DNA of 27,353 nucleotides, from IMG/VR virus record IMGVR_UViG_3300021087_000062, positions 1 through 27,353 of that record. One strand, written 5' to 3'. The stretch's first letter is position 1; each line of letters begins with the position of its first letter. This document shows positions 637-5,238 of this stretch, in pieces. The translations under genes and the position numbers were made by a program. This DNA is from a virus. The notes below the pieces were generated by a model. It did no database searches. It saw only the letters and a program-made list of their open reading frames with translations, and was not told the origin of the DNA.

Positions 637-1617
637 TTAAAAAAGATCATCTTCTGTAATAGACTTACTTTTTTTATTATAATCAACACTCTTCTTATAA
701 AAGAAATCTCCTTCTTTAGTGCCAGTAATTTCTATATCAAACCATTCTACTGCTTTCAATATTTCCTGATTTACCTCAAAGATGGGCTTCATACCTATCT
801 TATCTAAAGAGTTGTTGAATCTGTTTCTTATAAAATGTTGTATTGTTTCTTTAGGTAGAAAACTAAGTTCTCCTTTCTCAAAGATCCAATCAAGTATACC
901 ACACTCTGCACTATAAGCTTTCATGCATGCAGAGTAGATCAAATCTTCAAATTCTTTATCAAACCATTCTGGATTTTCTCTTTTGATTATATTAATAATC
1001 TCAGCACCAAAATTACCATGTATCTCCTCTTCTTTACTGGTGGCCTCAACAACATTAGATATACCTTTAAGTACATTCTTTTCTTTGTTAAAGCTCATCA
1101 TAATTAAGAACTGACTAAATAGACTTACGTGCTCTATAAATAAAGAGAATAATAATACAGACTTAGTATACATTTTATTGTCTCTAGAACGTGTACCATC
1201 TAGGTACTTTTTTAAGTACTTAAGTCTACCTTCTATTGCAGGCACTTCAACCACTGATTGAAACTCTTTTTCTAAACCTAAGATTCTCAACAGTCTAGCA
1301 TAAGCATCTTTGTGCCTAACTTCTGATTCAGCAAATGTAAATCCTACATCACCAATCTCAGTAATAGGCATTCTTTTATATAGATCACCCCAAAAAGTTT
1401 TTACATTAACTTCTATCTGGGCAATTGCTAACATAGTTTTTTTAATAACATCCCTTTCTGCTGATGTGATAGTTACTTTAAAATCTTGTATGTCTTCTGT
1501 AAAATTAAACTCAGTATCAATCCAATATGAATGTCTAATAGCATCTTTGTATGCTAGCAATTGAGGATACTCATAAGGTAATATGTTTTGTCTTGGTAAG
1601 AAAATGTTTTTATTCAT
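637..1617 (-). CDS. nrdB: Ribonucleotide reductase small subunit (class I, R2)
   Basis: This 326-residue protein has the ferritin-like R2 fold signature of class I ribonucleotide reductase, which holds the di-metal/tyrosyl radical needed to make dNTPs. Likely metal ligands are E69, E99, H102, E162, E197 and H200. The E-x2-H-x3-Y spacing (E99, H102, Y106) preserves the radical tyrosine. The first ligand is Glu rather than the Asp of the E. coli enzyme, as in several R2 subclasses. The acidic C-terminus (SITEDDLF) is the region that normally docks to the large subunit. No large subunit (nrdA) is present in this window; it may lie beyond the left edge, or the host R1 may be used. A terminator-like hairpin ends about 20 nt upstream of the start codon. 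Confidence 0.92.
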   Translation of the reverse strand: MNKNIFLPRQNILPYEYPQLLAYKDAIRHSYWIDTEFNFTEDIQDFKVTITSAERDVIKKTMLAIAQIEVNVKTFWGDLYKRMPITEIGDVGFTFAESEVRHKDAYARLLRILGLEKEFQSVVEVPAIEGRLKYLKKYLDGTRSRDNKMYTKSVLLFSLFIEHVSLFSQFLIMMSFNKEKNVLKGISNVVEATSKEEEIHGNFGAEIINIIKRENPEWFDKEFEDLIYSACMKAYSAECGILDWIFEKGELSFLPKETIQHFIRNRFNNSLDKIGMKPIFEVNQEILKAVEWFDIEITGTKEGDFFYKKSVDYNKKSKSITEDDLF

Positions 1618-4949: not shown

Positions 4950-5033
4950 ATGAAACAAGGACAGCAATGTATATGTGGTGAAACACAAAACTCAGAAGGT
5001 TTATGTGACGGATCACATGCTTCATGTAAATAA
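4950..5033 (+). CDS. 27-aa peptide with CDGSH-like iron-sulfur motif
   Basis: An ATG at 4950, after the same ATAACT-type leader used by other genes here, opens a 27-codon frame ending with TAA at 5031-5033. It contains C7-x-C9-G-x-T-x6-C19-D-G-S-H23, very close to the CDGSH signature (C-x-C-x2-S/T-x3-P-x-C-D-G-S/A/T-H) that binds a [2Fe-2S] cluster through three Cys and one His. The differences are one additional residue between the second and third Cys, and no Pro at its usual place. The known domain is about 40 residues, so this peptide is barely larger than the ligand loop. Eight nt separate it from the next gene. Cluster binding is inference; chance resemblance is possible but unlikely given CDGSH plus CxCG together. 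Confidence 0.6.
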   Translation: MKQGQQCICGETQNSEGLCDGSHASCK

Positions 5034-5040
5034 ACAAATT

Positions 5041-5238
5041 ATGGCAAAGACAAATAAAGTAGAAAATGGATATTTTGATCCAACCTCTATACCGGCAAAG
5101 ATACAAGCAAAAAAGAATGCAACTGCTACAGCAACTAGAATGAGGTTGGCAGCACGTGGTTCTCAAGCAAAACAAGTATCTACTAGAGCAACAGAACCAG
5201 TACAATCAGAAGCTTTTAAAAAAGGATATTGTAAATAA
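5041..5238 (+). CDS. Small basic protein ending in YCK, 65 aa
   Basis: A 65-residue basic, Ala/Thr-rich protein starting MAKTNKVENGYFDPTSIPAK, with a helical middle (KIQAKKNATATATRMRLAARG) and a C-terminal GYCK. The frame stays open upstream to 4975, but that extension overlaps the CDGSH-like peptide in another frame; the ATG at 5041 after AAATT matches the leaders of neighbouring genes and is preferred. No family is recognised. Its single Cys is two residues from the C-terminus, like the Cys-Lys ends of the two preceding small proteins. It may be a minor virion protein. Confidence 0.65.
   Translation: MAKTNKVENGYFDPTSIPAKIQAKKNATATATRMRLAARGSQAKQVSTRATEPVQSEAFKKGYCK

Follow-up and report, generated by a model that had tools for sequence, protein, structure and literature searches.

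Can an open reading frame (ORF) encoding only 27 residues in a phage genome be a functional gene, and if so, what would so small a protein do? The question is raised by a 27,353-base virus record, analysed here over its whole length and referred to as the window, in which the sequence-only reading had picked out a 27-aa frame with a nearly complete CDGSH motif in a virion and lysis cassette. The window also encodes a DNA polymerase, a primase and a DnaB-like helicase. Its G+C content is 31%, and a Shine–Dalgarno-like 4-mer lies upstream of one of its 31 listed ORFs. Shine–Dalgarno sites are rarely used by Bacteroidota, and because of their scarcity here we infer that the host belongs to this phylum, which the sequence fits.

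A small gene in the lysis and tail region

Both the frame and its motif were confirmed. The translation, MKQGQQCICGETQNSEGLCDGSHASCK (27 aa), follows the pattern C7-x-C9-G-x-T-x6-C19-D-G-S-H23 and carries an extra cysteine, Cys26 (Table 1). The degenerate motif C-x-C-G-x-T-x6-C-D-G-S-H occurs once in the window, at the loop itself; it is absent from 100 dinucleotide-preserving shuffles. The setting had also been read correctly, as the gene lies among holin-like and tail protein genes. Gly/Lys-rich ORFs occupy the slot directly upstream of the peptide site in many relatives, mostly without the cysteines of the GKCCGK end found in the window.

Table 1 Positions of the peptide gene, its loop and selected other genes in the window
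Feature	Position	Strand	Remarks
Ribonucleotide reductase small subunit	637–1617		phrog_86
Membrane/coiled-coil ORF, 103 aa	2339–2650	+	phrog_2658 'hol-like chemotaxis', E 9.4e-9; upstream, same strand, late block
Holin-like membrane protein, 157 aa	4189–4662	+	phrog_3427 holin, E 1.7e-18; two genes upstream of the peptide gene
Gly-rich ORF, 85 aa	4668–4925	+	Directly upstream of the peptide gene; C terminus GKCCGK
CDGSH-like microprotein gene, 27 aa	4950–5033, including stop codon	+	ATG at 4950, TAA ending at 5033
Ligand loop C7-I-C9-G-E-T-QNSEGL-C19-D-G-S-H23	4968–5018	+	Pattern match; putative ligand role, from CDGSH structures (PMC3174974)
Loop codons of the putative ligands	Cys 4968–4970, 4974–4976, 5004–5006; His 5016–5018	+	
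ORF, 65 aa (ENGYFDPTSI)	5041–5238	+	Next gene downstream; anchor in the synteny test
Tail protein, 114 aa	5247–5591	+	phrog_16194, E 6.6e-11; second flank anchor

Relatives were retrieved with only the flanking genes as queries: 66 loci through the tail protein and 78 through the 65-aa protein, two sets that share contigs. A CDGSH-like ORF is present in 23 of the former and 27 of the latter, always at one site, under a search expression that fixed the four ligands and G15, allowed D/E/N and S/T/C beside them and left G4, T/S6 and G11 free (loop numbering). One relative with a tail gene 60% identical to that of the window, retrieved without the motif, carries a 26-aa orthologue there. Among the dereplicated flank-fetched loci, the peptide gene stands directly before the 65-aa gene. 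It starts between 1 nt inside and 5 nt past the upstream stop codon, except in the window type, where the distance is 24 nt (for L463, L465 and L471 we assumed an inner ATG), and its stop codon precedes the following start by 2–7 nt (7 nt in the case of the window). At anchored loci that lack the peptide, the upstream ORF ends 1–29 nt before the 65-aa gene, and the dereplicated loci with an anchor show neither a decayed remnant nor a broken copy there. The peptide is also absent from all nine flank-fetched loci that have no recognisable anchor. The best explanation is a small accessory gene that is gained and lost as one cassette in the lysis and tail region.

Whether related viruses carry small ORFs with the same Cys and His residues had been set beforehand as a test of the gene, and they do, at the site itself. 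Protein constraint on codon substitution was found as well: pN falls short of pS whenever the window is paired with one of its 12 orthologues. Across the 13 distinct peptides, window included (78 pairs, 20 codons), pN is 0.197 and pS, which is near saturation, is 0.537, giving a ratio of 0.37. All 13 retain loop residues G4, T/S6, G11, D14 and S/T16. The ORF at 4950–5033 is a real, selected and free-standing gene.

Relation to CDGSH proteins

As described with the structures of types 3, 4 and 6 (PMC3174974), CISD proteins share the motif ΦCXCXX(S/T)XXXPΦCDG(S/T/A)H, in which C2, C4, S/T7, P11, C13, D14, G15, S/T/A16 and H17 serve iron coordination and structure, and Φ1, P11 and Φ12 belong to the β-sandwich core; dual iron–sulfur modules and a β-sandwich were, according to that source, common to all CISD structures then known. 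The 3Cys-1His ligand set, C-x-C ... C-D-G-x-H, is present in the window peptide and in 13 of 13 orthologues (the search required it), and the second-shell residues S/T7, D14, G15 and S/T/A16, in the numbering of PMC3174974, are found in 13 of 13. As the sequence-only reading had noted, the loop exceeds the consensus by one residue and is without its proline. Six residues separate T from C, so the spacing is not C-X-C-X2-(S/T)-X3-P-X-C with its invariant Pro11, and where Pro would stand, two residues ahead of the third Cys, 102 of the 106 viral proteins listed have Gly. Residue 1, hydrophobic in the motif, is Q in the window, and the residue before the first Cys is K or Q in 76/106 viral motifs and K in 87/125 chromosomal motifs listed. 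Position Φ12 is mixed, with Y, L or F in 64 of the 106 viral motifs listed. At 27 aa, the peptide is too short for the β-sandwich with its N-strand, P motif and dual cluster modules.

PF09360, with its gathering score of 29.5 bits, matched neither the window peptide nor anything else in the window record and nine related phage records; two longer-loop relatives that were scored reached 16.6 and 14.9 bits, against the same cut-off. Among 50 longer-loop family members, 23 show zf-CDGSH matches, all of them weak (E ≤ 1, best 9e-4). When these 50 were aligned as a profile with 22 viral CDGSH proteins of canonical spacing, hhalign returned 96.4% (E 1.3e-9). A PDB sequence search gave three weak matches, two over the loop to the CISD entries 3TBM (E 0.13) and 3TBN (E 0.30) and one over half of the loop to 1GH9 (E 0.89). 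The AlphaFold model of a 33-aa relative, of modest confidence (mean pLDDT 67.6, pTM 0.26), contains no strand of three residues; that of a tandem relative is of low confidence (mean pLDDT 54.9), and Foldseek and VIA-align found no match for these models of modest and low confidence.

We file the window peptide as a CDGSH-like variant outside strict zf-CDGSH, because the spacing, Pro11, residue 1, the β-sandwich and the Pfam score all depart from that family; it may nonetheless work like a CDGSH member. The mitoNEET-type kinship first proposed for it holds for the ligand set and the profile match but is not supported as zf-CDGSH membership (no Pfam match, different spacing, no Pro11). Loss of scaffold contacts along with the scaffold would be coherent with a loop that holds a cluster, and is no proof of one; the loss of P11 is not purely a scaffold loss, because P11 is also structural for the cluster module (PMC3174974).

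Like the CISD proteins (mitoNEET, Miner2/CISD3 and the prokaryotic types 3–7; PF09360), the micro-peptides have the C-x-C...C-D-G-(S/T)-H ligands, an S/T two residues after CxCG, the conserved D and G, and a matching profile. Unlike them, they have one more residue in the loop, lack Pro11, the hydrophobic residue 1, the N-strand, the P motif and the β-sandwich, and are mostly 22–30 aa long, whereas PcCISD, the smallest CISD among the three structures of PMC3174974, has 53 aa at full length. Short CDGSH proteins of canonical spacing from uncultivated viruses resemble them in being viral, often short and equipped with the same ligands, but keep the x3-P-x spacing and match zf-CDGSH in 22 of 22 tested. 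The canonical spacing matched at least 120 stretches of viral contigs (L127–L246 as listed), and 50 of the 96 distinct canonical-spacing proteins listed are no longer than 60 aa. In the open literature we found no description of phage CDGSH proteins or of a link between YceI and CDGSH proteins; the 'orphan CISD' supplement of PMC3174974 may list short forms, and a 2018 CDGSH phylogeny (PMC5859297) features no virus, phage or Bacteroidetes in its available main text.

A family in viruses and bacterial chromosomes

The gene belongs to a wider family in viruses and bacterial chromosomes, which lay beyond what the sequence-only reading could see. A DNA pattern search of viral contigs for C-x-C-G-x-[ST]-x6-C-D-G-[ST]-H, which fixes the ligands, G4, S/T6, D14, G15 and S/T16, matched at least 120 stretches. 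Together with four of the flank loci (L001–L004), the listed matches number 124 and represent 106 distinct proteins, of which 47 have at most 30 aa, 26 have 31–60 aa and 33 are longer; at positions that the pattern leaves free, these 106 carry, besides Gly11 (102), Asn/Asp8 in 89 and Pro9 in 56. In one-per-species bacterial genomes, the viral pattern with G11 also fixed again matched at least 120 stretches, so that both figures are lower bounds on family size. Free-standing ORFs of at most 66 aa account for 112 of the 120 bacterial stretches listed (88 in Bacteroidota, 15 in Bacillota and 9 in Verrucomicrobiota), and all nine Verrucomicrobiota matches listed have two loops in tandem. Among the matches listed, 47/74 viral and 86/107 chromosomal distinct free-standing peptides are 22–30 aa long, with lengths taken from the farthest upstream ATG and so possibly overlong; a few chromosomal ORFs, such as L252 and L277, are broken by N runs or contig ends.

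The exact pattern occurs, seed included, in 15 of 299 sampled genomes from the family of the Flavobacteriaceae seed and in 4 of 194 from the phylum of the Opitutae seed, and in 1 of 299 from the phylum of the Paenibacillus seed (the seed alone). The longer-loop family is therefore widespread yet patchy. A reversed-pattern control had no matches in 792 sampled genomes. Annotated phages searched by tblastn with a consensus-like micro-peptide, with a short canonical CDGSH protein, with a 108-aa fusion and with a 71-aa canonical protein gave no match, which is poor evidence of absence given how little sensitivity tblastn has for queries this short. The window peptide itself had one weak match (E 5), to an open frame (L006:5001-5069) in a human-gut phage record (MT835885). 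This frame reads C-x-C-x9-C-S-S-S-H, which keeps the spacing of the ligands but has no D-G; chance alone would give such an E-value, and the match is probably accidental.

The loop also occurs fused to other proteins. In L273 it is joined, through what we read as a membrane segment, to a YceI domain that covers profile positions 6–149 of 150; a Lys-rich stretch precedes the membrane segment, which suggests that the loop is cytoplasmic. In three Bacteroidota proteins (L264, L355 and L366) it forms the C terminus of a PSP1 protein, the PSP1 match having been tested in L264 only; we take this partner to be RicT-like. An Opitutae genome (L345) has it near the C terminus of an extended ribosomal protein S16. 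In phages it ends a long protein with a Peptidase_S78_2 (XkdF-like protease) match (L048) and a WYL_2 SH3-like protein (L008; L043 is similar by eye). The loop-ended long phage proteins of L032, L057, L110 and L115 look like the L048 member. Alignments of the WYL_2 fusion with 13 annotated phages stop at or before query residue 96, short of most of the CDGSH loop, and were set aside.

Neighbourhoods, proposed function and alternatives

Chromosomal neighbours, counted with one peptide per locus and named by Pfam, place many of the peptides in a redox setting. Of the 88 Bacteroidota loci listed, 56 have a YceI gene directly upstream on the same strand (median gap to the peptide 4 nt, range −1 to 54, in 57 loci among the matches listed), 16 have an FMN_red gene directly downstream, 11 have the full row of YceI, peptide and FMN reductase, and 61 have either neighbour. 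Neither adjoins the peptide in 27 of the 88, nor in any of the 15 Bacillota and 9 Verrucomicrobiota loci listed. Within 3 kb of the peptide, the 88 Bacteroidota loci also contain MarR (18), HxlR (10; our reading from the sequence) and Pirin (5) genes. YceI abundance does not explain the adjacency, because 21 sampled genomes of one such Bacteroidota family hold 73 YceI genes. YceI lipocalins are described as binding isoprenoids, ubiquinone-8 among them, and for one of these lipocalins a genetic link with a cytochrome b561 in the defence against lipid peroxidation is described (PMC9113575). The gene beside the peptide in many marine bacteria is thus a probable quinone carrier. MitoNEET, for its part, is described as being reduced by FMNH2, which flavin reductase makes, and as passing electrons through its cluster to oxygen or ubiquinone (PMC9490426). 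The BcnA/LcoA/PsrA lipid-peroxyl detoxification system (PMC9113575) likewise has a YceI lipocalin encoded beside a redox partner; the neighbour here is instead a CDGSH-like microprotein with a putative redox function, accompanied by an FMN reductase in some loci.

We propose, with a probability of about 0.5, that the peptide is a free-standing, minimal CDGSH-like [2Fe-2S] redox peptide that acts as a relay or guard at the membrane quinone pool and is used by phages late in infection. Cys7, Cys9, Cys19 and His23 of the 17-residue loop would bind a single metal centre, most likely [2Fe-2S]. The missing parts would mainly be dimer-scaffold features of canonical CDGSH proteins, and because they are missing, stability of the centre would have to come from the peptide alone, from its self-association or from docking to a partner. 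The chromosomal YceI and FMN reductase context fits the mitoNEET path from NADH through flavin reductase, FMNH2 and a CDGSH [2Fe-2S] centre to ubiquinone, with the peptide as a putative electron relay or redox guard. Phage copies may, by analogy, act on the redox state of the host membrane late in infection; the chromosomal context can be transferred to them only by analogy, because neither YceI nor FMN reductase was found in any of the 91 listed viral loci (free-standing ORF of at most 66 aa). In favour of this reading are the presence of the peptide in flank-fetched loci, pN < pS, the kept positions, the profile match, the YceI and FMN reductase rows and the L273 fusion. Counting against it are the altered spacing, the absence of Pro11, of a hydrophobic residue 1 and of the β-sandwich, and scores of longer-loop members below the Pfam cut-off, as well as the FMN reductase being the next gene in only 16/88 listed Bacteroidota loci and the 27/88 without either neighbour.

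The main rival to [2Fe-2S] is zinc: the same four ligands could bind Zn2+ in a structural peptide, a zinc-knuckle-like adaptor for protein or nucleic acid, which we find credible though somewhat unlikely. Zinc knuckles resemble a chain of 22–30 residues without a hydrophobic core. The loop is fused, in adaptor-like fashion, to the unrelated WYL_2 domain, XkdF-like protease, ribosomal protein S16 and PSP1 protein, and CDGSH itself was at first annotated as a zinc finger (PMC5859297). Against zinc stands the retention of T/S6, D14, G15 and S/T16 in 13/13 orthologues, residues with iron-binding or structural roles in CDGSH proteins as described (PMC3174974) and with no obvious need at a Zn site; the redox setting of many chromosomal loci also speaks against it.

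The phage neighbourhoods could instead point to a lysis-timing factor that acts on holin or endolysin directly or as a redox-gated regulator. Among the 91 listed viral loci, again with one peptide counted per locus, a holin-family gene lies within 1.5 kb in 49, compared with 299 of 1196 other ORFs there, and an M15 peptidase gene in 27, compared with 162 of 1216. One or the other is found in 59 and neither in 32, and all 78 nearby holin and M15 matches are on the peptide's strand. This enrichment is an indication and not a test, because frequent neighbours served to build the neighbour models, which makes the count partly circular, and because the loci are related by descent. With one locus compared per distinct peptide, the peptide recurs in different gene orders, which argues for repeated placement near lysis genes: holin, Gly-rich ORF, peptide, 65-aa ORF and tail in the window type; coiled-coil membrane protein, peptide, M15 or another ORF, and holin; M15, holin, peptide and an HNH-like ORF (HNH being our reading); peptide, ORF, M15 and holin; and M15, ORF, peptide and a thioredoxin-like gene. 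However, the ends of late-gene regions are common sites for accessory genes, the position in the lysis region may be just such a favoured location, and the peptide is often absent from relatives with the same holin–tail layout. We consider a lysis-timing role distinctly unlikely.

Very unlikely, in our view, is an iron/sulfide or thiol buffer, metal-donating or thiol-reactive, that would for example supply iron to phage ribonucleotide reductase. The window does encode the small subunit of that enzyme, its peptide has the additional Cys26, and 7 of the 91 listed viral loci have a thioredoxin-like gene no more than 1.5 kb away; but only 18 of the 145 peptides of at most 34 aa among the matches listed have more than three cysteines, so that additional thiols do not characterise the family. 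The nearest neighbours of the peptide include a thioredoxin-like gene in L029, L051, L058, L068, L089 and L116, the Pfam match having been tested for L116. A chance ORF with a lucky motif can be set aside: although the frame has only 27 aa and no match of its own in Pfam or PHROGs, this idea is contradicted by the flank-based orthologues, purifying selection, tight packing, more than 100 distinct homologues and 0/100 shuffles.

Returning to the [2Fe-2S] redox peptide, a speculative extension, rather unlikely as a whole, is that the 22–30-residue class is among the smallest natural [2Fe-2S] proteins, passing electrons in bacteria from FMN reductase to YceI-bound quinone and, once acquired by phages for the lysis cassette, altering the redox state of the membrane and with it the time of lysis. 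Carriers are Bacteroidota, Paenibacillaceae, Opitutae and phages, and the class is unnamed in the family libraries searched. Confirmed metal binding would mean that CDGSH-like centres can be reduced to the loop and that the motif can work without a β-sandwich, and would provide a natural model of very early iron–sulfur peptides. The operon of YceI and FMN reductase genes makes a concrete electron path testable, and part of this could be done in cultured strains, for instance Polaribacter glomeratus (L270), which has YceI upstream; phage copies, if the reading is true, would bring a redox element into lysis cassettes. Such ORFs escape family libraries: for the 50 longer-loop peptides, NCBIfam and PHROGs held no fitting family, and Pfam gave only the weak zf-CDGSH matches.

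Some of the peptides (L052, L063, L069, L070 and L123) have acidic tails with NEDVPF, which presumably resemble the C-terminal tip of single-stranded DNA-binding proteins, and another group, including L035 and L046, ends in LPFPYL.
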